Origin: a virus
DNA: 64,000 bases
Virus record (IMG/VR): IMGVR_UViG_3300042564_005700
Span: 22,797-86,796 of that record
Direction: 5' to 3' (one strand)
Every line of letters begins with the position of its first letter. The first letter of the stretch is position 1. Positions 44,301-64,000 of this stretch are shown here, one piece after another. Position numbers and translations under genes: made by a program. Under the pieces are notes generated by a model. It was not told the DNA's origin. It worked only from the letters and a program-made list of their open reading frames with translations, and searched no databases.

Positions 44301-44551
44301 CTGTTCAAACACTATCTGAATTTAGAAAAGTTCCAAAAAACTCTGAAATGAATCCTATATTACCCTATAATTTCACAATAGATTCAAATATTGATCCATT
44401 TGTTGTAATTGAAGTAACATCTGATAATGGATATGGATTAATCTATAGAGATAGAAAAAACTATGAAATAAGAGGAAATAAAGATTTAACAGAGCCTACA
44501 AAATATATAGATCCAATAGGTCCATTTATTCCTATATCTCAAATATACTAA
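38393..44551 (+). CDS. Giant baseplate or tail-fibre protein with beta-propeller and carbohydrate-binding-like modules
   Basis: A 2,052-residue protein. Parts seen: an N-terminal beta region; a Gly/Ser/Thr module at about 280-370 that recurs in the fibre protein at 55806; short W-x-x...Y modules at about 430, 1863 and 1904 (EWAPFKTYNAGDKITYYDKI, SWIPNTSYEVTNVVEYNRDI) like ChiC/CBM5 carbohydrate binders; a propeller of YVTN-like blades at about 970-1280 (NPNNGDIYVTYDNS, NEFEGDMYVITD); and a helical segment near 1642 (YKSIINAINFFGYNDLQ). Likely a virion surface or wedge protein that contacts host glycans. A bidirectional terminator follows. Confidence 0.75.
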   Translation: MSNHKNLLFFNKEGDYLNFNYNYTTDRFEGDLLFHENSSDTFKTLGIYMLENIPSFEFELPGTLTLNKFQLFNEYGLFFYNSKYENQSINRIEPINNDPTFYSKWIFGDNFEKKFPIGSIIRFDSVFLEFNNPTQTYTVVSTKKGAVMIISSVDNATFESMYISQYSDQSIYVGRTISAINGIGVYNYINSLYSDNLSYWNEPQFYDKLYKKKKLNIINSQLNDGIYTVKEEELTDNKHFEYYTSGMNGEDIIIEVVSKTDLPRIYDGGLNINQVSNQITSGGEILTFSYTSNVGANGPYTSLTSNGASSSVTGTGGLFDVVVSGGVVSSVTINKIGKQYTVGDLFVIDGVSIGGSTIIDDIYITINSVADPIVSVENKIYFSSSVPDILKPGREFKIIGSTTNQNFFTIANIPTFTGNTQETFYGTQSQVLWNNKIYQCILAYTQSFTGATQFVDPYTTEYWSPSISYIKVDQVVTPEILLGAQIYLTTDRIYFGYGFTYSTAATLASAAEKYKDDLKSFNIDLFYENNKLKADLIYPSKYAEVNFYQNQIGPTYSIGNVTQTYERVTQVEESVNSELNYDISQNILVNIVFTDIDEYGFKVIINGQVYQEELAAIYSGGLLDMQRTIDRTLRNWLARHYTELIGLGIIADIQYTGPIFSPFVNSIKLQTQYPNVPLIIDDIFVGITADYYIEHSRVLFSNNDYTNTRPTIGPVLTLTINDDEFSQNTIYQTGSYSQYPDIPATLSAWVDEHGDYLRTFGILVTPINNLLKFDVKRLDRRLDYTINTGKLSIPGIIDYTITKKIKGNDGLLITSNEVSLPTDLVSFEDAGFATGMVFSINNTIHPYNNQEFVIQFLDPQVLNLSYQGPFWGLTSGICNSSAFITLAFDTGYGQTACDGPIVGPTPSGAGPYQIGAFDPSAFTLTYNPNTYTLNTYNLQGYPGTSGLVDLIYVQLSNSIYAFGDDLTVMDSYITSYLTTVYLPGNTQSIEIEYNSYNNYLYCLSKNNIFVVDPLLNTLVATMSLANNAHDMEINPNNGDIYVTYDNSPNIDIWDYTNTLAVTLGTSSLNFPPSATSCGKMVFNEFEGDMYVITDANQTLRINGGPSLPGYLPPNSSNPNRTIQTTYGIPGLTNSIFYEPINEAIYVYGSSSLWKIDNGVSQSISGITTQPFNDIIFNNLTGEMNISDSSTSFKSLNLSTDAITINTGVSNYGYLALNQFDGDVYLSSLSSNSVSVIRPTTGAVVQTVPLPSGSTRIIYNPDRRSVWVIEPSTNTITEVEVTLNSSININPSVYNPINDNSYGTLDPNYEPHVDLWLKTKEYVRRPRENFEGEVQVKYYWKWFADDVPEFFMYDFSGDQLPVNGSYSYTGIKPLSPVVLNKNANKDLTKLNAPEYQQTIFNKVEYKLSYIDDESNISIEPEPIQLFIGYKSEEEGALRSVLQLWKKEEVTIEFESTQINGTILRFETLDEFGPDKRGMISINTLSSEFFIGKGLKEGQLITIYVRDLTNKSSQYISNNNGLIMKIRTVYAKNMVLDFLSGNDLLYPESTVIVDYPKVNNTTYLKTTIKVIDREISRFIVYGQTEVEDERFKIELGNVGKLIAPNEVFIFKEYDILEGGTDWTILNKKRKEMLMMKHLIYPYIGAYKSIINAINFFGYNDLQLNEYYRDINPNSEKFLKLFKVEIPDMFDNTVEGFTESEFVKNNFPNENYEETNMFNLTYQITDKEGTNVLNYSIDEVVIKLQGLKYWLKRNIIPLTHKIMDITGKAYLKSTNEIVHTTYDVRFINSKENMTPITFRLNEAYLMPINSGSTVYNCVLDFYTIIEGIGSDKNPTGLVPPPKPFNGVDLEIPDYFNISIRTYKTYKEWAPFKTYNAGDKITYYDKIYESAKENNKINNPRKYENTKSWIPNTSYEVTNVVEYNRDIYVCTGLGTFATSSGTASITTSVPPVLDNGSDKNWLNITQWREIDLEPVQTLSEFRKVPKNSEMNPILPYNFTIDSNIDPFVVIEVTSDNGYGLIYRDRKNYEIRGNKDLTEPTKYIDPIGPFIPISQIY
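39231..39505 (+). repeat. Module shared with the fibre protein at 55806
   Basis: It encodes GGEILTFSYTS, then GPYTSLTSNGASS, TGTGGLFDVVVSGG, KQYTVGDLFVIDG and TIIDDIYITIN. The same order with similar residues is at 55925-56195 on the other strand. Confidence 0.8.
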
Positions 44552-46456: not shown

Positions 46457-49400
46457 CTATGGTTTTTCAGTTCCTAATTTCTCTTCTTTTTTAGCAGTCA
46501 TTATGTGCATTACTAAATCATCAACTGTATCAACATTCTTGTTAATTGAGTCTAATAAATGAGCAATTCTATCCAATTTATGTAAAGCACTTTCACCTTT
46601 ACCATCAACAGGACCTTGATTACCTTTCTTAGCCCAAACTTCTCTTTGACCACCACCTGGTTTCTCACCAACATTTGGACCACCTCCTCTTTTTGGTGAA
46701 TCAAGTAACTTAGAAAATACACTACTTCTTTTTTCTAGAACGGTCAACATATTATTGAACATTTTAGAATCCATTGACGAAAGTATTGCAATATTACCAG
46801 TCAACTTTCTTATCATATTAACTTTTTGACCATCAACTGATTTAATAGCCGAACTAAACTTATTAAGTGATGAGGCCAATTTATCAAATGCACTAGCCAT
46901 TTTATTCATACCTAAAGCTGCTCTTGAAACAGGATCCAATCCAAATACGCTTAAAAGACCACCACCAGATAAAGTATCATCTTTACTAAGATATCTAACT
47001 AAACTAGCAAAGTCTCTAATATTAGTAGCCATATTTTTTACATAACTAGGATCTATTTTATTTTCAAAGAATTTTTTATTCTTCCATAATATACCAGCAG
47101 TCATCACTAACTGATTTACAATCCTATTAACGGTTCCAACATCAGCGGCTCTAGTAGTTTCTACAGAGTAACTACCAAATCTACCAAGACTCATAGTTTT
47201 AACCTCTTTAATAGTAAGAATCTTATCAAGTATTCTAGTTAATTTAGCATAATTTTCTAAGTTCCAATGTAGATCATAAACCCAATTTCTATCTAATTTA
47301 AATTTGAAAAACTTTTGATTAATATGTAAAATTCTAGCTGTTTCAACAATTTGACTAACAACTCTATTAACAATAGAAACATCTTTCATCTTTCTTGTTG
47401 TAGTACTAGTAGTTGACGCACCAACTCCCATAAATCCACCAGATTTGATAGATGTTTTTTCATCAAATCCTAACATCTTATCTAATTGTTGAGTTATAGA
47501 TGCAAACCCTATAACATTTTTACCCAAATTAGTAACCCAAGACTTATCTAACTTAAATTTAAAGTATTTCTGAGCACTCCACAAATGTTTAGCTGACATA
47601 GATATAGACTTAATACCTCCTTCAAGAATCTTAGAATACATCGAAAATATGGCAACATTAAATCCTCTTTCTTCAATTTCACCAAAAATATCCATAAATC
47701 CTACTATAGATAATTTAACACCGTTGGCCCAAGCCTGACTAGGATATGCTTTCCAAGCATCAGCACCAATAGTATTAAAAGCAAATGCGGCGTCTGTCAA
47801 TGAGTAAGCTAAAGTTCTAACACCATATGACATATTATCAACTACCTCAGTACCAGATGTAAACCAACCAGTATCCTCACTTAATGATTTGAAAACAGGA
47901 GCAAAAGCGTTAAGAGCAGCACCAACTCCTTCTCCCCACTTCTTAGAAGGATAACCCTCATCAAATGTGGCTTTATTAGCGGCGAATATTTTAGCAGCAT
48001 CTATAATACCTTTAGATATAGTTATTATAGCAGCGCTCATTTTTTTACCTCCACTAAACGGGAAGTCAACTAACATCTTATAAACAGGAGCAAAAGCACC
48101 AATAGCTAAACCGACTCCTTCGGCCCATGCTTTTGGAGGACCATTCTTAAATACTGCTTTATTCTTAGCAAAGAATCCAGCAGCATCAACAATACCACGA
48201 GAAACAACTTTGATAGCTCTAGCAAAGTCATCAGGACCCACACCACCTCCACCAAATGCCTCCATTACAGAACTCATCACCAACATCTGATAAACTTGAC
48301 CAAATGCACCAATCGCGATAGCAACTCCTTCAGCCCATGCTTTAGTTGGTCCGCCCGTATATTTACCAAAAGCTAAGATACTAGATACTTCAACTATTGA
48401 CCAAGCAATAGAAGCTAACATACTCCTTCCTTGTTCAAACGGGTCTGAACCGGTGAAAAAACTTATAACAGCTGCCGCCATACCAATTGCACCTAATACA
48501 AGAATAAGTGGAGCAAAAGTTGAAAATAATAATACAGTAGCGACCGTCCATCCAAGCATTCCTTTATTATCATATTTACCTTTTGATAGTATTTTAGAGG
48601 TCTCAACAATAGTTTCTGCAACAGCAAGTACCAAAGGAACACCCAATGCAAATGCTATTAATCCGATACCAGTCATTGCTATCCCACCCAAGACCACCGC
48701 CATAAGAGCAAAAGGAACCATAGCAGCCACAGTACCAAGTGTCCATTTAATAGGTGGATACTTGTTATATTTACCCATCGCTAGAATATGTGAAGTTGCA
48801 ACAATTGCTAAGGCAACAACCAGAACCATAGCCCCACCCGCCAAGATGGCCAACGCGCCAAACCCAGACATAGCGATACTACCTAAAACAAGCATTGCTG
48901 GAATAAATGCCAATAGTGATAAACCAACTCCTAATGCCCATTTCCAATCTGGATATTTTTTATAATTACCCATTGCTAGTATATGAGATGAAACCATTAT
49001 AGCAACTGATATAATAACAATTAACAATGCTCCCATAATAGCATCTTTAACACTAACTTTCAACTTACTAAGAGCGAACATAGCTACCCCTATCGCAATA
49101 ACAGCAATCGCCAATACCACCGAGTATATTGCAATCTTCAACATTGTCATAAATGGTATTGTCTTAGTCTTACTAAGAATATGAGAAGATAACATTATAG
49201 CTATAGAAATCGCAACAAAGAAAAGAGGTAATTTAAAAACATCTTGCATCTTCATTTTAGAAACTGCTTTTATTATAAATTTAGCCGCAAAAGAAATAAC
49301 AATAAATACAATAGCAATACCAAGAGCTGTTAAAAACTGAGAGAATCCTATTGGCTTAATCATAGAAAAAGCATGTGATGAAAGAGCAATAGCATATGAG

Positions 49401-50524
49401 ATAGCAACAAGTATAATAGGTATTCCAATAGCAGCAACTAACATTTCAACCGGAGTCAACCCCTTGAAAGCTGTCATTAATTTTCTAATTCCAAAGGCAA
49501 TTATAGTAAATGCCAATGCAATAAATATAGTTGTAAAGAACTGACCAAGACTAATTGGTCTAACTAATTGTAAGGCGTAAGATGATAAAGCAATACCCAA
49601 AGCGATAGCAGGTAATATCAAAGGCAAGAATATAACAGACTTTGATAAAGCTGCCATTCCAATCCCTTTAAATGCTTGTAATAATTTTCTTATACCAAAT
49701 GATATAACGGTGAAAGCCAAAGCTATAAATATAGTTGTAAACATCTGACTAAATCCAACAGGTTTAACTAACTGAAAAGCCCAAGATGCAAAGGCGATAC
49801 CTAAAGCAATCGCGGGTAATATCATAGGTAAGAATAAAACACTTTTAACAACTTCCAGGAATGACATACCCTTAAATGCTCGTATCAATTTATATATAGC
49901 CGGTGATAAAGCAGAGAATCCAACACTTATTAATATTATAGTAAACATTTTAGTAAATGTAACTGGAGTAACCATTGACAATATCCAAGAAGAGATTGTT
50001 ATACCAAGTGAAATAGCTGTAATAGCTATAATAAAATTCTTAGAATCTTTCTTAGCATCAAACCCAACTTGTTTTAATACGGTATGAACTTTAGCAAAAC
50101 CTATAGCTAATAAAGGAAGAGCTATAGATAAGGCAATAACGGATAAGAAATTAACTTTACCAACAAGATTGAAGGCGATACCTAAAGCTAAAACAGCAAC
50201 AGCTAACAATAAAATAACTCCAATTCCTTCTTTGAAGTTTTTTTGTTTTTGCTTGTCTTTACCAAGTCCTTCAGCAGCATCAGCACCTTTACTCTTGCTT
50301 TTACCCATCTTCATTATAGTTTGTTGATTAGCAAGTATTTGTTTACTATCTTTTTGTAATTGCTTTACACCAGCGTTAATCTCTTTTATTTCTTTTATAA
50401 AATTACCACCTTTCATCGCTTTAGCAGTAGCAGATGAAGCCTCACTCTTACTCTTAAGAGAGTCTGAAATATCTTGCAGGGCAATTGATAAATTATTTAA
50501 AGAATCCAGTAACTTCTTATCCAT
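46457..50524 (-). CDS. Probable tail tape measure protein, hydrophobic repeats
   Basis: A 1,355-residue protein. Residues 1-98 are a charged helix; about 100-720 are dense hydrophobic segments in repeating blocks of roughly 80 residues (LPAIALGIA, then QLVxPxx, then FTTIFIALAF, FGIRKL, AFKG). About 480-930 contain another repeat, SHILAMGKYNKYPPIKW with variants up to KAWAEGVGLAIGAF. The C-terminus is charged and Gly-rich. Such length, repeats and alternating hydrophobic helices suit a tape measure that sets tail length and passes into the host membrane. At about 1.5 angstrom per residue the tail would be near 200 nm. A membrane protein is the alternative. Confidence 0.62.
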   Translation of the reverse strand: MDKKLLDSLNNLSIALQDISDSLKSKSEASSATAKAMKGGNFIKEIKEINAGVKQLQKDSKQILANQQTIMKMGKSKSKGADAAEGLGKDKQKQKNFKEGIGVILLLAVAVLALGIAFNLVGKVNFLSVIALSIALPLLAIGFAKVHTVLKQVGFDAKKDSKNFIIAITAISLGITISSWILSMVTPVTFTKMFTIILISVGFSALSPAIYKLIRAFKGMSFLEVVKSVLFLPMILPAIALGIAFASWAFQLVKPVGFSQMFTTIFIALAFTVISFGIRKLLQAFKGIGMAALSKSVIFLPLILPAIALGIALSSYALQLVRPISLGQFFTTIFIALAFTIIAFGIRKLMTAFKGLTPVEMLVAAIGIPIILVAISYAIALSSHAFSMIKPIGFSQFLTALGIAIVFIVISFAAKFIIKAVSKMKMQDVFKLPLFFVAISIAIMLSSHILSKTKTIPFMTMLKIAIYSVVLAIAVIAIGVAMFALSKLKVSVKDAIMGALLIVIISVAIMVSSHILAMGNYKKYPDWKWALGVGLSLLAFIPAMLVLGSIAMSGFGALAILAGGAMVLVVALAIVATSHILAMGKYNKYPPIKWTLGTVAAMVPFALMAVVLGGIAMTGIGLIAFALGVPLVLAVAETIVETSKILSKGKYDNKGMLGWTVATVLLFSTFAPLILVLGAIGMAAAVISFFTGSDPFEQGRSMLASIAWSIVEVSSILAFGKYTGGPTKAWAEGVAIAIGAFGQVYQMLVMSSVMEAFGGGGVGPDDFARAIKVVSRGIVDAAGFFAKNKAVFKNGPPKAWAEGVGLAIGAFAPVYKMLVDFPFSGGKKMSAAIITISKGIIDAAKIFAANKATFDEGYPSKKWGEGVGAALNAFAPVFKSLSEDTGWFTSGTEVVDNMSYGVRTLAYSLTDAAFAFNTIGADAWKAYPSQAWANGVKLSIVGFMDIFGEIEERGFNVAIFSMYSKILEGGIKSISMSAKHLWSAQKYFKFKLDKSWVTNLGKNVIGFASITQQLDKMLGFDEKTSIKSGGFMGVGASTTSTTTRKMKDVSIVNRVVSQIVETARILHINQKFFKFKLDRNWVYDLHWNLENYAKLTRILDKILTIKEVKTMSLGRFGSYSVETTRAADVGTVNRIVNQLVMTAGILWKNKKFFENKIDPSYVKNMATNIRDFASLVRYLSKDDTLSGGGLLSVFGLDPVSRAALGMNKMASAFDKLASSLNKFSSAIKSVDGQKVNMIRKLTGNIAILSSMDSKMFNNMLTVLEKRSSVFSKLLDSPKRGGGPNVGEKPGGGQREVWAKKGNQGPVDGKGESALHKLDRIAHLLDSINKNVDTVDDLVMHIMTAKKEEKLGTEKP

Positions 50525-50607: not shown

Positions 50608-51066
50608 ATGAAAATTAAAAGATTAATAGAACATTATTTATTTAACAAATCAGTTAAAGAGATGGAATTAGACAAAATTTTAGAGAAAGTCTTAAAAAAG
50701 AAAACTCTAACACCAAGGGAAAAGGGATTTATTGAGTTATACAACTCAACCCAAGAAGTCTTAATGAAAGACTATTTATATCTTTCAAAAAACTCAGCTT
50801 TTAAAAAGATAACTGAGATATTAGAAGTTGGTAAAAAGATAATATGTGACCTACACGACAGAAATGGTAAGATAGGTCTTGAAATTATAGGAATTGTGAA
50901 CAATTTTGAACAAGAAACTTGCTCATTAACTTTAAAAGGTGGTGAAAAACACAATCTTCATGATAAGTTCCTTTATAATTTAATATATAACATAAAGAAG
51001 GACCAATATTCAATTGAAGAACAAGATGAATACTTCGAAAAAATACCTACTGAGAATGAAGATTAA
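50608..51066 (+). CDS. Hypothetical protein with LDKI...EK-type motif
   Basis: A 152-residue protein. The start MKIKRLIEHYLFNKS is basic-aromatic but lacks the usual Glu, so a capsid signal is doubtful. ELDKILEKVLKKKTLTPREK at about 20-39 resembles the C-terminal segments of the proteins at 5380 and 24552. The centre has an Sm-like beta region (KKIICDLHDRNGKIGLEIIG). The gene end overlaps the next start by 11 bases. Confidence 0.6.
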   Translation: MKIKRLIEHYLFNKSVKEMELDKILEKVLKKKTLTPREKGFIELYNSTQEVLMKDYLYLSKNSAFKKITEILEVGKKIICDLHDRNGKIGLEIIGIVNNFEQETCSLTLKGGEKHNLHDKFLYNLIYNIKKDQYSIEEQDEYFEKIPTENED

Positions 51067-51358: not shown

Positions 51359-52258
51359 ATGGATACAATATATTGGTTTACCGGACAACCCGGACACGGA
51401 AAGACAGTACTTTCAAACTTACTTATCAAATACCTAGAAGAAAAATACAACAAAAAAGTATTTCACGTAGATGGTGATGATTTAAGAAGCTTAACTAACA
51501 ATCAAAACTACTCAAAGGAAGGTAGATATGAGAATATCAAAAGAGCTCAAAGTATCGCACAATACATACAAAACAAAGGAAATGATGTTGTTGTGTCTTT
51601 AGTAGCTCCATATAGAGAACTAAGAGAAGAATTAAAATCGAGAACAAAAGTTGTAGAAATATATGTACACACGACTGATATAAGAGGTCGTGAGAAATTT
51701 CACTCAGATGAATATGAATCTCCTGTAGAAGACTACATAGACATTAACACTACAGATGAAGAACCAGAGGTTACAATCAAAAGACTTATAGATAAGTTAG
51801 ATTTACCTTGGTCTAAGTCAAATCATGGTGGACTACCAACCAATAATAAAGATAAAAAAAGAGCTATTTTCATTGGAAGATATCAACCATATCATAATGG
51901 ACATATTCAACTGATTGAGCAAAAATTAAAATCTGGAGTAGGAGCTTTAATAATGATTAGAGATATTGAACCAGATGATAAAAATCCATTCACAACTCAA
52001 CAAACGGTTGATATGATAAGAAAGTATCACTCATCAAAAGGTGATGATGTTGAAGTTATAATAATACCAGATATAGAGTCAGTTAATTATGGAAGAGGTG
52101 TTGGATATGAAATAAATGAGTTTACACCACCAGATAACATAGGCAACATATCAGCAACAAAGGTAAGAGATTGTATAAAAGAAGGAGATGATAGTTGGAA
52201 ATTAATGGTTGATGAGTCAATCCAAGAAGATATAAAAAAATATCTACTAAATGAGTAA
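51359..52258 (+). CDS. APS kinase fused to HxGH nucleotidyltransferase
   Basis: A 299-residue protein. Residues 1-150 are APS-kinase-like (CysC): Walker A GQPGHGKT (9-16), DGDDLR (38-43) and the lid-like EYESPVEDYIDI. Residues 165-299 are a nucleotidyltransferase of NadM/cytidylyltransferase type: GRYQPYHNGH (173-182), IPDIESVNYGRGVGYE and ISATKVR (264-270). The first domain would phosphorylate APS to PAPS. The second could join AMP to NMN, or, since ATP sulfurylases share the fold, make APS. It overlaps the next gene by 8 bases and starts an operon with a sulfotransferase. Confidence 0.85.
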   Translation: MDTIYWFTGQPGHGKTVLSNLLIKYLEEKYNKKVFHVDGDDLRSLTNNQNYSKEGRYENIKRAQSIAQYIQNKGNDVVVSLVAPYRELREELKSRTKVVEIYVHTTDIRGREKFHSDEYESPVEDYIDINTTDEEPEVTIKRLIDKLDLPWSKSNHGGLPTNNKDKKRAIFIGRYQPYHNGHIQLIEQKLKSGVGALIMIRDIEPDDKNPFTTQQTVDMIRKYHSSKGDDVEVIIIPDIESVNYGRGVGYEINEFTPPDNIGNISATKVRDCIKEGDDSWKLMVDESIQEDIKKYLLNE

Positions 52259-52676
52259 AGAAAAAACTTATCAGATAAGATACAACACAAAATCAACTTC
52301 AGATAAAGATACTTGGAGATTAATATGTGGAGATGAAGAAATATTAGTATCTAATATATTTATAAAATCAAAAGTAATAACAACAAAAGATTTTATTGAG
52401 AAACTTGGATGGAAATATCATGTTACATGTGTAGGAGTTCTAAAAATTGAAAATGGAGTAGCTTATATAAATGAAGTAGACAACTCAACAAAAAGACACA
52501 TACTTAAAACCTTATCATATAGAATACTTGGAACATCAGTTACTGTAATTGGTGCTTATTGCTTTGGTTTGTCAATAGAGATGTCATCTTTATTAGGAAT
52601 GAGTGAATTATTAATAAAACCATTAATTTACTTTTTACATGAAAGATTTTGGTTCAGGTTTATAAAAATAAAATAA
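52251..52676 (+). CDS. DUF2061 membrane protein with phage N-terminal domain
   Basis: A 141-residue protein. Residues 1-80 (YQIRYNTKSTSDKDTWRLI, WKYHVTCVGVLKIENGVAYI) form a small beta domain. Residues 82-141, RHILKTLSYRILGTSVTVIG then ISSLLG-like MSSLLGMSELLIKPLIYFLH and ERFWFRF, match DUF2061, a two-helix membrane domain often found with APS kinase genes in bacteria. It sits between the APS kinase and sulfotransferase genes, so a role in sulfate handling or membrane anchoring is inferred. Confidence 0.82.
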   Translation: MSKEKTYQIRYNTKSTSDKDTWRLICGDEEILVSNIFIKSKVITTKDFIEKLGWKYHVTCVGVLKIENGVAYINEVDNSTKRHILKTLSYRILGTSVTVIGAYCFGLSIEMSSLLGMSELLIKPLIYFLHERFWFRFIKIK

Positions 52677-52679
52677 AAA

Positions 52680-53354
52680 ATGTTAGTATCACATCTATAT
52701 AAATTTATTTTTATAAAATCATTAAAAACAGCTGGTACAAGTACTGAGGTATTTTTAGAACAATATTGTATATCCAATATAACGGAAGATCATAAGAGAG
52801 AAGCAATTGCAACCGAAGAAGGTATAATAGGTAAAAGAGGTAAAAAGGGAACATCAACAACAGCTTATGGTGAATATTGGAACCACATGAAAGCTGGTGT
52901 ACTAAGAGAATCATTAGGTAGTGAGATATTTGACAACTATACTAAAGTGATAAATGTCAGAAACCCATTTGATATGTTAGTAAGTAACTACTTTTTCAAA
53001 CCATTTTATGATGTTTATAGTAAAGGAGCAATCCTAACTTTCAAAGAATTTATAATGACAACTAACATACTAGTTGAACTAACAGATAAACACAATAGAT
53101 TTATGTTTATTGATGGAAATTTTATAATTGATGAGGCAATTAGATATGAAAATTTAGAAAATGATATAAATGGTTTAATCTCTAAGTTAGAAATGCCACC
53201 ATCTCAAAGATCTCTTGGTTATTATAAAAAGTCAAAAAGAAGAGATGATTCAGTTCACTATTCAACAATGTATGACTCAGAAACTAGAGAGTTTGTTGAA
53301 GAAGTAATGAAAGACTATTTAGAAAGATTTGACTATAAATTTGAAAATAATTAA
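52680..53354 (+). CDS. PAPS-dependent sulfotransferase
   Basis: A 224-residue protein. FIKSLKTAGTS (11-21) is the 5'-phosphosulfate-binding loop. VINVRNPFDMLVSNYF (90-105), with Arg94 and Ser102, is the 3'-phosphate-binding motif of membrane-type and carbohydrate sulfotransferases. It begins 3 bases after the DUF2061 gene. It would move sulfate from PAPS to an acceptor, probably a glycan or another host or virion surface molecule; the acceptor is unknown. Confidence 0.85.
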   Translation: MLVSHLYKFIFIKSLKTAGTSTEVFLEQYCISNITEDHKREAIATEEGIIGKRGKKGTSTTAYGEYWNHMKAGVLRESLGSEIFDNYTKVINVRNPFDMLVSNYFFKPFYDVYSKGAILTFKEFIMTTNILVELTDKHNRFMFIDGNFIIDEAIRYENLENDINGLISKLEMPPSQRSLGYYKKSKRRDDSVHYSTMYDSETREFVEEVMKDYLERFDYKFENN

Positions 53355-53363
53355 TTTTAAAAA

Positions 53364-53374
53364 TTAATATATAA
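53364..53374 (+). promoter_or_regulatory. Putative late promoter of the 53390 gene
   Basis: TTAATATATAA ending 15 bases before the ATG. It separates the small gene from the sulfation operon. Confidence 0.48.
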
Positions 53375-53389
53375 AAGAAAAATAAAAAG

Positions 53390-53608
53390 ATGGTAGTTAA
53401 TTTTAATAATCCTAAAAACCCAGCAATTACTAAAGTAACCGTAAAAAGAGTAGTTGATAACAATGAAAAGAAGAAAGTTACAGCTCACGTAAAAGAATTT
53501 AGTGGTAAAATTACTTTATGGGAAGGCGATGTTGCTTATACAGCTATTGGTCAATGGACTGATACAGATGTACAAAATAGACTTTTGGAAATTTATAATA
53601 ATAACTAA
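53390..53608 (+). CDS. Small hypothetical protein
   Basis: A 72-residue protein, MVVNFNNPKNPAITKVTVK. It is probably a small beta barrel or sheet with an ending WTDTDVQNRLLEIYNNN. No family is named. The next gene, convergent, starts its stop codon at the adjacent base. A late promoter motif just upstream suggests virion or late expression. Confidence 0.6.
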   Translation: MVVNFNNPKNPAITKVTVKRVVDNNEKKKVTAHVKEFSGKITLWEGDVAYTAIGQWTDTDVQNRLLEIYNNN

Positions 53609-54595
53609 TTAAATTAGTCTTTCTATAATTTTCATCTCTAATAAGTATTCATTCATAACATTTTCAATTGAAAATTTGGAATAATCTTGATTTTTATCAA
53701 ATTTATAATCTCCATTATAGGTAGCTTTTAAAGCTGCCCTATAATCTTTATAATCTATATCCTCCCATTCTGATTCCTTTGAATAGATTAAAACACTATC
53801 AAAACTTTGTTCTATTTGTATTGGAAAGGTTTCAATAAGACAAGCATTACTAGGATTAATAAAATCCATATATCCACTTATTTTAGAGTTGAAGCAAATA
53901 ATATCTTTTTTAAGAACGGCTGCGTATAAAAGTGGTATACAAAATCCTTCCATATATGATAAACAAATATAACAATCAATTCCTTTTCTAATTGACATTA
54001 ATTCTTCAATTGATAAAAAATCTCTTATTATTACAATCTCTGGTGAGTTTTCATTTTTTTCTATTAAACTCTCAACATCATTACGATACTTACCTTCAGA
54101 AATTTTAATAACTAATCTAACATTATCATTATTGGTGAATGTTTTATTAAAATGTTTTATAATATTTATAACATTCTTTCTAGGTATTCCGGTTGTCTCT
54201 GAATAAAATGTATATTTTTTATCTGTAAACTTATCACTAAAATAAGTATTATCAGAATCTAATAAATCTGTGTAGTAATAGTTTGGTATTATAGAAATTG
54301 GAGATATAACTCCATTTTCAATTAATATTCTCTCACAATTGGTAGAAGGAGTTATAATTAAATCATAGGTATTAAACGCGTCTATGGTATTTCTATAAAA
54401 CTTAGTACCATCCACAGGTTGTATCAGAATACACTTTTTGTATCTATCTCTATGAGGAACTTTCTTTAAGTAATGTTGTAGTAAAACATCACATCTAACT
54501 GAATTTATAGTGTAGTATTTACTTAAAAAGTCAAATATATCTTTATTTATTTCTTTAAGAGAGTGACCAAATACATCTTTAATATTAATTCTCAA
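53609..54595 (-). CDS. Glycosyltransferase, GT4-like
   Basis: A 328-residue protein. The C-terminal half has the GT-B nucleotide-sugar site: TTGIPRKNVINIIKHF (134-149), a VRLVIKI strand and YMEGFCIPLLYA (214-225), the E-G-F-x-x-P-x-x-E/A signature with Ala at the second Glu position. ITPSTNCERIL near 81 matches the family acceptor-side loop. It would glycosylate a surface glycan, DNA base or virion protein. Placement beside the sulfation operon and fibre genes favours a glycan or virion target. Confidence 0.75.
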   Translation of the reverse strand: MRINIKDVFGHSLKEINKDIFDFLSKYYTINSVRCDVLLQHYLKKVPHRDRYKKCILIQPVDGTKFYRNTIDAFNTYDLIITPSTNCERILIENGVISPISIIPNYYYTDLLDSDNTYFSDKFTDKKYTFYSETTGIPRKNVINIIKHFNKTFTNNDNVRLVIKISEGKYRNDVESLIEKNENSPEIVIIRDFLSIEELMSIRKGIDCYICLSYMEGFCIPLLYAAVLKKDIICFNSKISGYMDFINPSNACLIETFPIQIEQSFDSVLIYSKESEWEDIDYKDYRAALKATYNGDYKFDKNQDYSKFSIENVMNEYLLEMKIIERLI

Positions 54596-55805: not shown

Positions 55806-58800
55806 TTATATATTAATATTTTTTACTGTTAACGCATCAAAAGCATTATGATAAGTTAATCTCTTAACACCATCATATCTTTCAATTATGTGACAACTAT
55901 AAGTCGCATAAACTGATGGAATTCTAACATTATTTATGGTTATTATTATATCATCTGTTACTGAAACACCACCAACATTTACACCATCTATTCCAAATGT
56001 ATTACCAGTTACATAATTTTTACCACTTGTGTTGATAGAAACAGATGATACAGTACCACCAGATGATATAACAACATCAAAAGTGGCTCCGGTTCCATTA
56101 AGACTTGAAGGACCGCTCGGTGTTAATCCACTGTAAGTACCAGTAATCCCCGAATTAGAAGTTGTTAAAGTATAAGTTAATATCTCACCATTATATGTTG
56201 TAAAATCAACTGAACTTATTTCAGTTTCAATTATATTTTGTTTAAAATTTGAATCAATAGTATTTAGGAAAAACTTATTTGTTACTATCTTATTATAAGA
56301 GAAGTAATCAAGTATATTATTATCACGGAACCAACCATTAATCTCATTGTTATAAAATTGACTTTTAATTATATTATCATGAAAGTAATATCCTACTCTA
56401 TTTTCAGTAAAAAAGTTTTCTATTTGATTACCTTCAAACGAATCACTAATATGATTTTTGGAAAAAACAATTCCTATATTATTATCAATAAAGTAGTTAG
56501 CAATATGATTACTTTGATATGATGACTGAATAGTATTATACAAAAATAAATTACCAATGTGATTATCCATAAAGTCCTCCGCTATATAATTACCACCTGC
56601 GTTATTTCCAGCTTTTGGATCAGATCCAAAATGATCACCTATAACATTTCTCTGAAATCCAGCACGAATGTCATTTGAAGGACCTGATAATGTAGAATTA
56701 CCAAATCTATTTCCGATTTTATTATGTTGAAATTCTCTTCTTATCTGATTAAATCCAGTAATATCACCTATAGAGTTTAAAACAAATCTCGGACCCATCA
56801 TATTAGGCCAACCACCATTACCACTATTACCAACAAATAGGTTTCCAATTTTATTACTTCTAGAAGATCTACCAAAAGAGTTGAACCAAATTTCATTTCC
56901 TAATTGATTCCATTGAAAGTTTTTATCAAAAATATTAAAAATAACATTATCACCAAATGTGTTATTTTTAAATGAACTGGCCATTAAATTACCACCATCT
57001 TCACCACCAGAACCAGCTGGATAATTAAAATCATTACCAAAATAATTTCCAATTTTATTACCTATAAAGTCTTCTTGTGTATTATTTCCAGTAGGAGTAT
57101 AAGTAGAGAAGAATAGATTTTGTTTAGCTCCAAAATAGCTTCCGATTTCATTATGTTGAAACCTAACACCAATATTATTACCTTCAAAGAATGTTCCGAT
57201 TTTATTGTATTGGAATTCATTAGCAATAGTATTTAATCTAAAGTTATTACCAATATTATTATCTGTAAAATCTTTACCTATTGTATTACCAAGTGTAGTA
57301 GATCCCATTAAATCACCTATAACATTTCTAGCACAACCAATGTTGATAAAGTTACCAATAAATGAGTCACCAATATGATTTGACTCAAATCCATCTTTAA
57401 TAGTATTAAACATACTAGTATATGATAATACATTTGATGTAAAATATTTACCTATTGTATTTGAATAAAAGAAATAAGGAATAGTATTTCCAGTAAAATC
57501 ACTAGCTATATCATTATTTGAGAATAAATTTCCAATTGTATTAAAATTAAAATGTGGTTTTATTACATTAAATGTGAAATCATCACCAATATTATTAGTA
57601 GACATATTATCACCACCAAATTGGTCAGTATATGTAATATTAAATACAAATCCATGTCCAATTGTATTGAAGTTGAATTTAGTACCGATTAAGTTACCAC
57701 CGTTTCCACCACCACCATTTATATCATACCCGAAATAGTCACCAATTCTATTATTATTAAAAAAGTCTTTGATTCTATTTGAGAACGGAGTTGGAAAATA
57801 GAAATTAGGAGTAGTTTCCTCATTCCCGAAATAACTACCAATTACATTATACTTGAAAGCATATCCTATTTCATTTTTGATGAAATAATCTTTAATTTGA
57901 TTACTTTTGAATCCTTGACCAATTCTATTAGATTTAAATGAATGTCCAATAAAATTCTTTTCAAAGTTTGCACTATTACCATAAACACTTGATGTTCCAA
58001 TTACATTTAACTTGAAGTCATTATCAATATCATTTTCTAAGAAGTTATCTAGAATATAATTAGATTCAAAATTACTACCAACATTATTATATTCAAAGTT
58101 ATCTTGTATTTGATTTAATTTGAAGTTCAATTTAGTATTATTACCAACAAAATCATCTCCAATTATATTATCAGTATTTAAATCTCCTAAGTTATTATTT
58201 GTAAAGTTATTTGATATCGTATTTTGTGCAAAAATGTTTCCAATGTTATTAGAATCGAAACGATTTCCTATAACATTCAACAAACAAAGATTACCAATAA
58301 CATTATCGACACAATTTCTACCAAAAAAATTAACTATAAATTCGTCTCCAATGTTATTATTAGTAAAGTTTGAATCCAGTAAATTAAATTTGAAGTCTTC
58401 TCCAATAATATTACTATAGAAACCATCATTAATCAAGTTTTGAAAGAATCCATTTCCAATTTTATTAGCTTCGAAGTTTTCAAATAAAATATTATCATTA
58501 AAGAAGTTACCTATCCTATTTCCAAAGAATAATGTTCTTATATTGTTACCAAGATTATTATTATTTATATCAGTACCAAAATAATTACCAATAACATTAT
58601 CATAGAAACTAGCTGGTCTTACTCCACCATAATTACCTATAATATTATTTTGGAAGTGATCACCTATCTTATTCCCATGAAAGTCATATCCTATTAAATT
58701 GGTTGAAAAATAATTTTGTATTTCATTGGAATAAAAATCATAGTCTATGAAATTTTTTTCAAAGTTATTTTGTATCTCATTTAATCTAAAATTATTTTTT

Positions 58801-61800
58801 ATATTATTATTAACAAAAGTATTACCTATTGAATTTCCGAAAAAATAATTTTTTATTACATTTTCAGTAAAGGAATTTCCGATAATATTATCATAAAAGT
58901 TCAATCTAATATTATTATTAGAGAAACCTCCACCAATAGTATTACCATTTTTACCCCCAAAAAAAGATTTAATAGTATTATTTGAAAAAGCATTTGCAAT
59001 TCTATTATTAACGAATTCATTTCCACTAACATAATTATATATTCCACTAATACTATCATATGTGGTATATCTTGAATTCCATAATGTACCAGCTGGTGAA
59101 GAACCTGATGTATAAGAACCCTCTGATGCTTGGTTGTAAATACCTTCAGAAGAAGAACTAGTTATTTCTAAAACACCAGCTGATATAATATCAACTTCAG
59201 AACCACCATCAGTTTTAGTAAAGTAAACAGTAGATCCAATATCTGATCCGGTTATTGGATCTATCTCTGTTCTCTCATAAGAGAATCCTCCACCTGCACT
59301 TAATGGAGTCCATCTAGTAAACATAACTCTATAATATTGGTTATTAGCACCATCCAACATAACAACTTCTTCAAAAATAATTTTATCTCTAAAATTACCT
59401 CCAAAATGTTGAAATGAAGTAGAAAATAAATTAAAATTTCTACCTGAAATGTTACTTAAATCATTCCATCCCCATTTAGTATTATCACCTAGGTTATTTG
59501 CATAGAAACCATTTCCTATTTGATTATTAGAATAATTACAGAATGTATCATTTGATTCAAAATCGTTTCCTATTTGATTGGATCCAAAGTTGTTATTTGT
59601 TTTATTATCATAGAAGTAGGTTCCTATTTGATTACCATAGAAATCTCCTCTGATTAGATTACCACCAAATGAATCACCAATGTTATTGTTATTAAAATTT
59701 GAATTATAGAATATATTTCCCATGAAACCATCTCTGATTATATTACTACTGAATATAAAACTATCGATTTCACCTCCACCACCACCTAAGAAATCAATAG
59801 TTCCTATCTCATTCTCCTCAAATTCAGATCCTATTTGGTTATCACTAAAAAAGTTATATATTTTATTTCTCCAAAAAGATGTATCAATAGTATTATCTCT
59901 AAATGTTCCTATTATTTTATTTTCATTAAAACATTTAGGCATGGAAATGGTCGAAATTATATCAGATACACCAATTGTGTTAAATGAGAATCCTCTATTA
60001 GTATCTTGAGGAAATGATTGTTCCAAACTATTAATATAATTATTAACAAATCCATTTCCTATTTGATTACTTTTGAATACTCCAAAAATAGTATTTCCTT
60101 CAAAGTTATTATCTATTCTATTGTCATTAAATTTAGAACCATTGGTAACATCATCACCACTATTTCCATAAATAGTGTTATTAGTAAATAAATCACCAAT
60201 AGTATTAAAGGAAGAACCTATAGGAAATGTATTATTAAAAGAATAATTTCCAATGGTATTAGAAATAGAACTCCAACCGAAAACTATATTAGAAAGAACA
60301 AACCCAGACCCATACTGAAGTCCTTCATGATTATTAATAAAGTTATTTTTAGATTCAACTACACCAATAGATACTAACTCATAAGAAAAATCAAATGTAT
60401 ATCTATTACTAAATTCACCATTATCAGATTGACCAACATAAACTTCTTTCCAATCACAATATTGAGAATAGTCACCACTACTACCTGACCCGATTAATTG
60501 ATCAGAAGCGTAATATTCAAAAGATTCACCTGAGAAAACAATACCACTAAAACTAGAGTCTACCTGAACATCAATAAGAATATTACTAGAAATATTAGTA
60601 ACTTTAACACCAACCTGTGTAAAATTATTAATCTCTATAAGAATGATATCACCTACGGAAAGTTGTGTAAGGAATGCCGTACCATTACCATTAATAACAC
60701 CCGTTGCACAATCATAAGCTGTTATAACACCTGCTAATCTTTTATCAGCATGTGATGAGATTGTAGCTCTATTATATGATTGATATCTTTTATATAAAAC
60801 ATTTCTATGGTCATAATCTGTTCTATTTCCATATTGATCAACTCTTTCAATTATTGTACCTAAAGAGACATCATCAGATCCAATTGCTTGTGATGTGACA
60901 TCATATTTAATTGTATCAAGTGGCCAAGCTGGCTGATAGGCATCAACTACTAATGAGTTACAAGACAAAGCAGTAACCAATATTGGTTCAACTGGACCAT
61001 AAGATGCCGTTGAGGATCTTATACTACCATCTACATAATAATCAGGAGCTAAATAAATGGTTTGATAGTCTGTTATTAAATAGTTAGATGCTGTTCCCAA
61101 TGAATTTGAAGCAATTAATCCTAATAAAACAGAATGTGTGACTTCAGTATAAAAACTACCACCAGTAAGAGCGAATAATGAATCAACATATAGTCTATCA
61201 ATCAATGAATGTGTAACAAATGTAGCGTTATAATCAGCTGTATAAACTAAACCTTCTAAATTACTAATAGTTACTAAACCAGATTCACCTGAAATAGTTA
61301 TTGAAGAACTAGATGATACTATATCCACACCGGAATCTCCGAATATCTGAACATTACCAGTACCAGCATCTAAACTTATAAGATCCGACTCAACATCAAA
61401 AATAGAAGATGTAAAGTAAAGACTATTAAAGTTTTCAATAGTTAAATCATAACCTTCACCTTGTAGGAGTGTATTTTGTGAAATAGTACCACCTAAAGCA
61501 ATAACACCGGATGAAACTTCACTTAAACCATTCGTAGCGCCAACAGCATTGATTAATGAATCAACATATTGTTTATCAACCAATGAATGTGTGACAAAAG
61601 TAGCGTTATAATCGGCTGTATAAACTAAACCTTCTAGGTTAAAAGTTGTAATATTTCCTGATGTTGCTGATATTGTTAATACATCATTAGCAACTAATAC
61701 AATATCCTGTCCAGAAATAATTTGAATAGATCCTAGACCCGAATCTAAACTTATAAAGTCAGATTCAACATCAAAAACTGAAGAAGTGAAATAAAGATTA

Positions 61801-62255
61801 TCAAAATTAGACATTATCAAATCATATTCTTCACCATGTAAAATTGTATTTTGTGAAATAGTACCACCTAAAATAGCTGTCGCTCCTATTAATGATAAAC
61901 CATTATCAACAGATAAAGAAAAAATTGAACCTGAGTCACCAACAATTACCCAGTTAGCTCCATTACTTTCCAATATAACACTATCATATTGATTAAGTGT
62001 TTTTGTAAGAACTCCATCAATTGTTTCAGATGAAGTAGTATCAATCGTTACTATTCCAGTTCCACTATTTTTAACTACATAAATTTTACCAGCTGAACCT
62101 ACAGCTGTTGGTAAAGTTACATTAAAAGTACCTGAAGTACATTCTATAAAATAATCGTCTGAAGATATTGAATATGTCGTTGATATACCAACATATGGAA
62201 ATGTTATACCACCTTGTGATATTAAACCGCGTCTTGTTACGAATTCTTGATTCAT
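55806..62255 (-). CDS. Giant tail fibre with nonapeptide beta-helix
   Basis: A 2,149-residue protein. Residues 1-130 are a beta-rich cap (RRGLISQGGITFPYVG); 131-360 hold two tandem copies of a module (LGGTISQNT...YTADYNATFVTHSL); 360-635 are further beta domains. From about 640 to 2005 there is an array of about 9-residue units N-x-I-G-x-x-F-x-x, ideal for a parallel beta-helix with Asn and Ile ladders, with Gly-rich inserts. Residues 2010-2110 are the module also present at 39231. The end is a short beta strand region. Probably a very long, thin receptor fibre. Confidence 0.82.
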   Translation of the reverse strand: MNQEFVTRRGLISQGGITFPYVGISTTYSISSDDYFIECTSGTFNVTLPTAVGSAGKIYVVKNSGTGIVTIDTTSSETIDGVLTKTLNQYDSVILESNGANWVIVGDSGSIFSLSVDNGLSLIGATAILGGTISQNTILHGEEYDLIMSNFDNLYFTSSVFDVESDFISLDSGLGSIQIISGQDIVLVANDVLTISATSGNITTFNLEGLVYTADYNATFVTHSLVDKQYVDSLINAVGATNGLSEVSSGVIALGGTISQNTLLQGEGYDLTIENFNSLYFTSSIFDVESDLISLDAGTGNVQIFGDSGVDIVSSSSSITISGESGLVTISNLEGLVYTADYNATFVTHSLIDRLYVDSLFALTGGSFYTEVTHSVLLGLIASNSLGTASNYLITDYQTIYLAPDYYVDGSIRSSTASYGPVEPILVTALSCNSLVVDAYQPAWPLDTIKYDVTSQAIGSDDVSLGTIIERVDQYGNRTDYDHRNVLYKRYQSYNRATISSHADKRLAGVITAYDCATGVINGNGTAFLTQLSVGDIILIEINNFTQVGVKVTNISSNILIDVQVDSSFSGIVFSGESFEYYASDQLIGSGSSGDYSQYCDWKEVYVGQSDNGEFSNRYTFDFSYELVSIGVVESKNNFINNHEGLQYGSGFVLSNIVFGWSSISNTIGNYSFNNTFPIGSSFNTIGDLFTNNTIYGNSGDDVTNGSKFNDNRIDNNFEGNTIFGVFKSNQIGNGFVNNYINSLEQSFPQDTNRGFSFNTIGVSDIISTISMPKCFNENKIIGTFRDNTIDTSFWRNKIYNFFSDNQIGSEFEENEIGTIDFLGGGGGEIDSFIFSSNIIRDGFMGNIFYNSNFNNNNIGDSFGGNLIRGDFYGNQIGTYFYDNKTNNNFGSNQIGNDFESNDTFCNYSNNQIGNGFYANNLGDNTKWGWNDLSNISGRNFNLFSTSFQHFGGNFRDKIIFEEVVMLDGANNQYYRVMFTRWTPLSAGGGFSYERTEIDPITGSDIGSTVYFTKTDGGSEVDIISAGVLEITSSSSEGIYNQASEGSYTSGSSPAGTLWNSRYTTYDSISGIYNYVSGNEFVNNRIANAFSNNTIKSFFGGKNGNTIGGGFSNNNIRLNFYDNIIGNSFTENVIKNYFFGNSIGNTFVNNNIKNNFRLNEIQNNFEKNFIDYDFYSNEIQNYFSTNLIGYDFHGNKIGDHFQNNIIGNYGGVRPASFYDNVIGNYFGTDINNNNLGNNIRTLFFGNRIGNFFNDNILFENFEANKIGNGFFQNLINDGFYSNIIGEDFKFNLLDSNFTNNNIGDEFIVNFFGRNCVDNVIGNLCLLNVIGNRFDSNNIGNIFAQNTISNNFTNNNLGDLNTDNIIGDDFVGNNTKLNFKLNQIQDNFEYNNVGSNFESNYILDNFLENDIDNDFKLNVIGTSSVYGNSANFEKNFIGHSFKSNRIGQGFKSNQIKDYFIKNEIGYAFKYNVIGSYFGNEETTPNFYFPTPFSNRIKDFFNNNRIGDYFGYDINGGGGNGGNLIGTKFNFNTIGHGFVFNITYTDQFGGDNMSTNNIGDDFTFNVIKPHFNFNTIGNLFSNNDIASDFTGNTIPYFFYSNTIGKYFTSNVLSYTSMFNTIKDGFESNHIGDSFIGNFINIGCARNVIGDLMGSTTLGNTIGKDFTDNNIGNNFRLNTIANEFQYNKIGTFFEGNNIGVRFQHNEIGSYFGAKQNLFFSTYTPTGNNTQEDFIGNKIGNYFGNDFNYPAGSGGEDGGNLMASSFKNNTFGDNVIFNIFDKNFQWNQLGNEIWFNSFGRSSRSNKIGNLFVGNSGNGGWPNMMGPRFVLNSIGDITGFNQIRREFQHNKIGNRFGNSTLSGPSNDIRAGFQRNVIGDHFGSDPKAGNNAGGNYIAEDFMDNHIGNLFLYNTIQSSYQSNHIANYFIDNNIGIVFSKNHISDSFEGNQIENFFTENRVGYYFHDNIIKSQFYNNEINGWFRDNNILDYFSYNKIVTNKFFLNTIDSNFKQNIIETEISSVDFTTYNGEILTYTLTTSNSGITGTYSGLTPSGPSSLNGTGATFDVVISSGGTVSSVSINTSGKNYVTGNTFGIDGVNVGGVSVTDDIIITINNVRIPSVYATYSCHIIERYDGVKRLTYHNAFDALTVKNINI
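55925..56195 (-). repeat. Fibre C-terminal module shared with the 38393 protein
   Basis: It encodes NGEILTYTLTT, GTYSGLTPSGPSS, GTGATFDVVISSGG, KNYVTGNTFGIDG and SVTDDIIITIN, in the same order as at 39231-39505. Confidence 0.8.
56230..60340 (-). repeat. Nonapeptide-repeat array N-x-I-G-x-x-F-x-x
   Basis: About 1,370 codons of diverged 27-base units, for example NKIGTFFEG, NNIGVRFQH, NEIGSYFGA. Inserts break the register in places (for example near 59100-59450). Confidence 0.85.
61170..61880 (-). repeat. Tandem duplicated module in fibre N-terminus
   Basis: Two copies of about 110 residues, each starting LGGTISQNT and ending EGLVYTADYNATFVTHSL, about 375 bases apart and diverged at many positions. 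Confidence 0.8.
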
Positions 62256-62375: not shown

Positions 62376-64000
62376 TTATATAATTCTTATACCTGTTTTA
62401 ATATCCCAAGTATATGCAGTTACTATAGCATTTAAACTAATAACACTACCTGAATTGGTAACAGAAAAGTCTATATCATTCGTATCAAGTCCTAAATCTG
62501 TAGTAGATGTGTCAGTATATTGAACTAAAGTACTATCAAATATAGCCATAACTGTACCCATTCTACTTCTAGTTCCAGCATCTCCGAAAACATAATAGTC
62601 AAAATAAACTCCTCGTCCTAAAGTGTTACTAAATGTAGCCACAACTGATGTACTTGAAACACCTAAAGATAGTGTTGTATTTAATAAAATACTACCATCG
62701 ATTGTTAATAAATAACCATCGAAAGTAAGATTTGTTTGAGCAATTGCTTGGTCTGTTGATGAACCAGTTGCTGCTAAGATTCTATAATCAGCTGGGTTTA
62801 TTATGGCATTAAATCCTGTTCCAGATGTACCATCTGTACCATTTACTCCAGAAATACCACTTGTACCATCAGTACCACTTGTTCCATCAGTACCAGAAGT
62901 TCCGTCAGTTCCAGACACACCAGAAGTTCCGTCAGTTCCACTTGTACCATCAGTACCACTTGTTCCATCAGTACCGGAAGTACCATCAGTCCCAGAAGTA
63001 CCATCGGTTCCAGAAATACCAGAAGTTCCATCAGTACCACTTGTTCCATCAGTACCGGAAGTACCATCAGTCCCAGAAGTACCATCGGTTCCAGAAATAC
63101 CAGAAGTTCCGTCAGTACCACTTGTACCATCGGTTCCACTTGTACCATCAGTTCCAGAAGTGCCAGAAGTGCCATCGGTTCCACTTGTTCCGTCAGTTCC
63201 ACTTGTTCCAGAAGTGCCATCGGTTCCACTTGTACCATCGGTTCCACTTGTACCATCGGTTCCACTTGTACCATCGGTTCCACTTGTACCAGAAGTTCCG
63301 TCAGTACCACTTGTACCATCGGTTCCACTTGTACCATCAGTTCCAGAAGTGCCAGAAGTGCCATCGGTTCCACTTGTACCATCAGTTCCAGAAGTGCCAG
63401 AAGTGCCATCGGTTCCACTTGTTCCGTCAGTTCCACTTGTACCAGAAGTGCCATCAGTTCCACTTGTTCCGTCAGTTCCACTTGTTCCATCAGTTCCACT
63501 TGTTCCATCAGTACCAGAAGTGCCAGAAGTGCCATCAGTTCCACTTGTTCCGTCAGTTCCACTTGTTCCGTCAGTTCCACTTGTTCCGTCGGTTCCACTT
63601 GTACCATCGGTTCCACTTGTACCAGAAGTTCCGTCAGTACCACTTGTACCATCGGTTCCACTTGTACCATCAGTACCACTTGTTCCACTTGTTCCGTCAG
63701 TACCACTTGTACCATCAGTTCCAGAAGTGCCATCAGTTCCACTTGTTCCGTCAGTACCACTTGTACCATCAGTTCCAGAAGTGCCATCAGTTCCACTTGT
63801 TCCGTCAGTTCCACTTGTTCCATCAGTTCCACTTGTACCATCGGTTCCACTTGTACCAGAAGTTCCGTCAGTACCACTTGTACCATCGGTTCCACTTGTA
63901 CCAGAAGTTCCGTCAGTACCACTTGTACCATCGGTTCCACTTGTACCATCAGTACCACTTGTTCCACTTGTTCCGTCAGTACCACTTGTACCATCAGTTC
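62376..64000 (-). CDS. Collagen-like tail fibre protein, runs off the right edge
   Basis: The open frame is continuous from the edge (about 540 codons visible); the true start is beyond 64000. A GTG at 62918 is only internal. The first 385 visible residues are Gly-Thr-Asp-Gly-Thr-Ser repeats with occasional GTS-GTS or GIS-GVN units, then a beta-rich C-terminal domain from GFNAIINPADYRIL to the end WDIKTGIRII. Such Gly-x-y stalks occur in phage fibres, usually as trimers. The fixed six-residue period and absence of proline are notable. Likely a fibre that partners the large fibre downstream. Confidence 0.8.
   Translation of the reverse strand, partial: TDGTSGTDGTSGTSGTDGTSGTDGTSGTDGTSGTSGTDGTSGTDGTSGTSGTDGTSGTDGTSGTDGTSGTDGTSGTDGTSGTDGTSGTDGTSGTDGTSGTDGTSGTSGTDGTSGTDGTSGTDGTSGTSGTDGTSGTDGTSGTDGTSGTDGTSGTDGTSGTSGTDGTSGTDGTSGTDGTSGTDGTSGTSGTDGTSGTDGTSGTSGTDGTSGTDGTSGTSGTDGTSGTDGTSGTDGTSGTSGTDGTSGTDGTSGTDGTSGTDGTSGTSGTDGTSGTDGTSGTSGTDGTSGTDGTSGTDGTSGISGTDGTSGTDGTSGTDGTSGTDGTSGISGTDGTSGTDGTSGTDGTSGTDGTSGTDGTSGVSGTDGTSGTDGTSGTDGTSGISGVNGTDGTSGTGFNAIINPADYRILAATGSSTDQAIAQTNLTFDGYLLTIDGSILLNTTLSLGVSSTSVVATFSNTLGRGVYFDYYVFGDAGTRSRMGTVMAIFDSTLVQYTDTSTTDLGLDTNDIDFSVTNSGSVISLNAIVTAYTWDIKTGIRII
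62843..64000 (-). repeat. 18-bp GTDGTS tandem repeats
   Basis: Repeats of 18 bases with synonymous variation (CCATCAGTTCCACTTGTA-type units on the plus strand) fill this span to the window edge, giving spurious open frames in other phases. Confidence 0.9.

Follow-up and report, generated by a model that had tools for sequence, protein, structure and literature searches.

A nonapeptide-repeat protein of a huge phage, most likely a host-recognition tail fibre with a predicted beta-solenoid shaft

The DNA analysed here (the window) covers 64,000 bases out of a virus record 86,796 bases in length and carries genes for a portal protein, a terminase, a head protease, and a tail sheath protein of 1306 amino acid residues. 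A large ORF on the minus strand encodes a protein with nonapeptide repeats, referred to below as the fibre. The parts of this gene and the gene adjoining it were as follows.

55806-62255, minus strand: fibre gene encoding 2149 amino acid residues, a single intact ORF
61926-62255, minus strand: N-terminal attachment-like domain (residues 1-110), 66% identical to the N-terminus of the L004 fibre
61119-61925, minus strand: beta-rich shaft of two similar copies (residues 111-379), with matches in phages LR745206 and LR756502
60621-61118, minus strand: "ITDY" domain, a name coined here (residues 380-545), present in many repeat ORFs
60276-60620, minus strand: linker leading to the repeats (residues 546-660), from the alignment of relatives
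59469-60275, minus strand: first predicted solenoid block (residues 661-929), from scored units and the strands of model A
59007-59468, minus strand: inserted non-repeat domain and its leading edge (residues 930-1083), at a conserved place in its carriers
56220-59006, minus strand: second predicted solenoid block with short inserts (residues 1084-2012), from scored units and models A and B
57306-58595, minus strand: strongly conserved central stretch (residues 1221-1650), dN/dS 0.14
56325-56432, minus strand: four units absent from L002 (residues 1942-1977), from the pairwise alignment
55809-56219, minus strand: C-terminal domain and cap (residues 2013-2149), an ending shared with relatives
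62376-64000, minus strand: collagen-like (GTDGTSG) gene adjoining the fibre, at least 540 codons, its ORF open at the contig end

An earlier note had placed the fibre at 56230-60340, corresponding to residues 639-2009. This stretch does lie within one ORF, but the gene is longer than described, with 638 N-terminal and approximately 140 C-terminal residues outside the repeats, and the run is not continuous, being broken by a 133-residue non-repeat domain (residues 951-1083) and approximately 19 short inserts. The ORF was intact in the independent contig L001, with the same length and 99.86% identity, and in L002, an 84% relative of 2108 residues; L003 was 100% identical over residues 1388-2149, the remainder being cut by the end of its contig. 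An assembly artefact is thus excluded for the fibre. Like that of the window, the contigs of L001 and L002 begin shortly upstream of the fibre. The GTDGTSG gene matched the Pfam Collagen profile below the cut-off (E 6e-4).

Outside the repeats, residues 27-105 matched phrog_37034, a family of unknown function (E 2e-6), and the L004 protein with the matching N-terminus is a 2654-residue collagen-like fibre. Residues 99-303 and 118-358, covering parts of the shaft, matched a 1098-residue protein of the 634-kb phage LR745206 and an 893-residue protein of the 642-kb phage LR756502 (28% identity), respectively. At the other end, residues 2000-2149 were matched by 28 ORFs with E 1e-8 or better, including the window's own copies, and a (V/I)Y..Y motif terminates 56 of the 78 complete ORFs of a first set. 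A 2052-residue ORF of the window (38393-44551, plus strand) has no family match; approximately 95 of its residues are 56% identical to fibre residues 2019-2116. In the local alignment of relatives, only L002 aligned through most of the central stretch, which other repeat proteins matched at 32-36%.

The N-x-I-G-x-x-F-x-x repeat described earlier is real: the repeat region contained 44 strict NxIGxxF motifs, compared with a mean of 0.56 and a maximum of 3 in 500 shuffles of the region. Self-identity of the protein peaked at lags of 9, 18, 27, and 36 residues (0.231, 0.234, 0.185, and 0.175, respectively), and a three-unit DNA pattern matched the window seven times and none of 100 dinucleotide shuffles. 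The unit consensus was N (98%) at position 1, I (83%) at position 3, G (60%) at position 4, and F (88%) at position 7. A nine-column unit profile, trained on relatives without L001, L002, L003, L005, L052, and L066 (background, 163 matches in 89,151 shuffled residues), scored 92 units, well below the approximately 150 claimed previously; taking all gaps of 7-40 residues to be degenerate units added at most 42, and counting strict multiples of nine added 11. Recent internal duplication was rejected, the best 81-residue self-match being only 46% identical in protein and 58% in DNA.

The fibre matched no Pfam family at E ≤ 1 over the whole protein, the pentapeptide and RTX profiles included, no NCBIfam entry, and no protein in a PDB sequence search. 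In PHROGs, phrog_37034 and, weakly, phrog_15797, both of unknown function, were the only matches; they fall outside the repeat, and no recognised tail-fibre profile was among them. No published account of the nonapeptide repeat was found in the titles and opening parts of abstracts. The repeat family is absent from the libraries searched, and the class of narrow beta-solenoid folds is already known.

The closest database phages were LR756502 and LR745206, with identities of 78.8% and 78.0% in the terminase and 63.3% and 67.1% in the sheath, respectively; a two-unit DNA pattern did not find the nonapeptide repeat in either. Both show synteny with the block next to the fibre (ORFs 46457-50524 and 50608-51066, together with small genes). 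Beside it, LR756502 carries several fibre-like ORFs and LR745206 carries other genes. For huge phages of the Mahaphage clade, Bacteroidetes hosts are predicted in the consulted passages of PMC7162821, and the giant phage encoding the fibre probably infects Bacteroidota. The region 51359-54595, which separates the fibre from the syntenic tail gene, encodes an APS kinase carrying a cytidylyltransferase-like domain, a DUF2061 protein, a sulfotransferase-like protein, and a glycosyltransferase of group 1, possibly a glycan-sulfation cassette. Elsewhere in the window, the head maturation protease ORF (294-2411, minus strand) contains internal repeats of approximately 14 residues of the NIAYSEYLAENLDK type, and 10082-11191 (plus strand) is a glutamine synthetase-like phage gene (Pfam Gln-synt_C, E 3e-18).

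Relatives with the repeat abound in viral contigs but are seldom encountered in bacterial genomes. The three-unit DNA pattern matched viral contigs in at least 119 stretches, and a collection of 84,980 genomes of bacteria and archaea in two, each on a MAG contig; the relatives' loci were picked by the repeat itself, so that counts drawn from them come from a biased sample. A form of the repeat with Phe3 and Cys7 was found in 57 stretches, and most proteins from eight such loci contain an ITDY-like region. Among the matches listed, there were 168 non-redundant repeat ORFs (contained copies removed), 114 of them complete; 93 of the 168 carry the ITDY domain and 29 the inserted domain at its conserved place, and in the 27 with both, the distance between the two is 334-454 residues (334-346 in 17). 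ITDY-like domains also occur in Sphingomonas phage PAU gp99 and the huge phage LR756504, both without the repeats. The two-unit DNA pattern was absent from all eight related huge or jumbo phage records, and a profile of residues 380-1200 matched two of them, in the ITDY part only. L047 and L053 each carry three consecutive nonapeptide-repeat fibre genes, which suggests tandem fibre paralogues. Matches of one relative to Pseudomonas phage YA3 (L188:3788-5137) and Edwardsiella phage GF-2 (L189:2777-3823) were rejected, since these two proteins have different short repeats (SNTGxxSAA and GSSGxxARI, respectively) and lie near repressor genes.

Segment identities were compared for 23 of the 27 proteins carrying both domains, using 121 of the 253 possible pairs (50-97% identical). 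Median identity was 0.70 in the ITDY domain, 0.67 in the first repeats, 0.63 in the inserted domain, 0.50 in the second repeats, 0.43 in the last 150 residues, 0.51 in the cap, and 0.35 in the leading N-terminal "pre" segment. Since divergence is strong in the "pre" segments as well, it is not by itself the mark of a tip. Clear mosaics were seen in five of the 121 pairs, four of which involve L212. This chimera is 96-98% identical to L221 in the N-terminus, ITDY domain, and inserted domain and 38-42% identical distally, and its cap is 98% identical to those of L077 and L229, to which its inserted domain is 59% identical. The drop in identity towards the last 150 residues, together with this chimera, points to an exchangeable tip.

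The most likely role of the repeat rod is that of a tail fibre for host recognition. The gene lies among tail genes and has a modular N-terminus and a tip exchanged among relatives. The assignment to the tail is further supported by the N-terminus held in common with a collagen-like fibre, the collagen-like neighbouring gene, the sheath, portal, and terminase genes of the window, the L172 protein, which joins the phrog_6782 "tail fiber protein" (E 2e-24) to the ITDY domain and the Cys form of the repeat, and the fibre-like genes of LR756502 at the syntenic place. A different exposed protein of the virion or cell surface, such as a head fibre, a decoration protein, or a secreted adhesin, would fit the N-terminal PHROGs match of unknown function, but the tail-gene neighbourhood, the collagen-like partner, the phrog_6782 fusion, and the syntenic fibre genes make it unlikely.

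Conservation and selection were assessed on one pair, the fibre and its L002 relative, with dN/dS calculated by the Nei-Gojobori method. Asn1 differed in 0 and Ile3 in 3 of 88 units, which supports the Asn and Ile ladders proposed from the window alone; Phe7 differed in 2 of 88, and the remaining positions in 11-35%. For the whole gene, dN/dS was 0.31. The lowest values were found in residues 1-380 (0.12) and 1221-1650 (0.14), whereas the inserted domain (0.56) and the distal repeats at 1651-2010 (0.48) gave the highest. The variable parts of the fibre are the distal repeats, the initial blocks of repeats, and the 133-residue folded domain; within residues 1881-2010, 30 of 48 exposed positions differed, and L002 lacks four whole units in the distal repeats. 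These data also bear on the suggestion in the earlier note that inserts at register breaks are receptor-binding loops. Such inserts are numerous (19 of the short kind), and on a solenoid they would stand out from the surface, but they differed between the fibre and L002 at only 33 of 275 positions (12%), compared with 119 of 528 exposed repeat positions (22.5%) and 5 of 264 core positions; on this variability, the strict form of the suggestion was rejected, and we regard the loops as improbable receptor-binding sites.

Structures were predicted with AlphaFold2 as monomers: model A for residues 380-1200 from 15 of 17 candidate sequences (L116, which equals the aligned sequence of L112, and the partial L104 were left out; mean pLDDT 61.8), and model B for residues 1190-2149 from 9 of 11 (L090 and L007 were left out; mean pLDDT 50.5). 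Overall, both models were of middling quality. The best solenoid blocks of model A had pLDDT values of 80-89 and recurred at 18 residues, and over 30 units strands covered positions 2-3 (0.90) and 7-8 (0.83-0.87) and never 1 or 9. The predicted coil consists of 18 residues, or two units, with four short strands centred on Ile3 and Phe7 and Asn1 at a turn. In model B, many blocks of residues ~1659-1949 reached pLDDT 70-83, and residues ~1356-1576, where only L002 aligns, were mostly below 40. The beta-helix expected by the earlier note was thus predicted, with stacked 18-residue coils, in the confidently modelled regions, and ~1356-1576 gave no confident model. The inserted domain was modelled as helices followed by long strands. 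In the relatives, Gly4 was followed by Gly4 two units on in 706 of 1009 cases and one unit on in 608 of 1211, which supports the two-unit coil independently of the model.

This periodicity and the confident single-chain coil in the best blocks fit a monomeric solenoid. Phage fibres are usually trimers, and the T4 gp5 spike is built of short octapeptide repeats, so that three chains might intertwine as a triple-stranded beta-helix needle, each unit being one third of a turn; the unit here, however, has nine residues rather than eight, and we judge such a needle very unlikely. With two units per coil, a rise of approximately 0.48 nm per coil, and 92-134 units, the solenoid would be approximately 22-32 nm long. 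The helix had been called exceptionally long; the window lineage, with 90-93 units, is the longest of the 114 complete relatives listed (next 57, median 26), but this length is not long among tail fibres.

The VIA structural matches of both models were right-handed beta-helices, whose Z values, like those of repeat folds in general, are inflated: 3p4g (15.7), phage tailspikes (up to 15.8), and HetL (14.5) for one model, and 3p4g (16.4) and pentapeptide-repeat proteins (12-15) for the other. Foldseek gave no match in the PDB at E ≤ 0.001 for either model and two in BFVD, with TM values of 0.11 or less. A depolymerase tailspike, that is, a beta-helix with a glycan-cleaving active site, would agree with the tailspikes and polysaccharide lyases among the best fold matches, but the protein had no lyase, hydrolase, or other enzyme match in Pfam, NCBIfam, or PHROGs and lyase coils are wider than its 18-residue coils; we regard this reading as improbable.

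We therefore regard the gene as likely to encode a modular fibre from the tail of a huge phage of the contractile-tailed type, with a solenoid spacer and a distal receptor contact. Its place in the virion, its oligomeric state, and its receptor contact we infer from the features above. The N-terminus would dock on the tail or on a further component of the fibre, and the beta-rich shaft and ITDY domain would lead to a right-handed beta-solenoid with two nonapeptide units per four-stranded 18-residue coil, in which Ile3 and Phe7 would fill the core and Asn1 would stack at the turn. The folded 133-residue domain may project from the solenoid, and the C-terminal domain may cap it. The solenoid could serve as a stiff spacer, its length set by gain and loss of whole units, with the receptor contacted by the distal repeats together with the cap, and perhaps by the projecting domain, these being the parts that evolve fastest or are exchanged between phages.

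The fibre family to which this protein belongs is widespread among phages and has no name in the standard protein-family libraries. Host recognition is almost unexplored in the largest known phages, and a common fibre family missed by Pfam and NCBIfam would make it possible to recognise host-range genes in huge phages and gut phages that have not been cultured. The regular coil is also a candidate scaffold, with a length that the sequence gives directly. We tentatively suggest that the NxIGxxF repeats, together with the gut-phage-like NxFGxxC form, may constitute an undescribed class of beta-solenoid, four-faced with 18-residue coils of alternating 4- and 5-residue faces, with which many phages would build a host-recognition shaft of tunable length that has an ITDY base and, distally, an exchangeable tip.

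Among known systems, the Sf6, CBA120 TSP3, and P22 tailspikes share with the fibre a beta-helix in an adsorption protein (Z 13-16 to the fibre model), but they have wider, irregular coils and enzymatic sites and no sequence match to the fibre in the PDB search. The RTX-type antifreeze beta-helix MpAFP (3p4g) ranked first or second among the structural matches of both models and has a similar coil length; its repeat is a calcium-binding Gly-Asn-Asp, whereas the fibre has no RTX match in Pfam. The L004 fibre has the N-terminal 110 residues in common with the fibre and differs in its shaft, which is GTSG collagen-like instead of a nonapeptide solenoid, and PAU gp99 shares the ITDY-like domain but not the repeats. 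Pentapeptide-repeat proteins (HetL, Qnr, MfpA, and AlbG), whose Pfam profile the fibre does not match at E ≤ 1, resemble the fibre model in their narrow right-handed helix, each coil of which has four short faces, every face bearing one large hydrophobic residue, a likeness seen in the predicted models. Their coil consists of four pentapeptides, or 20 residues, whereas that of the fibre has 18, arranged as 4+5+4+5 from the nonapeptide.
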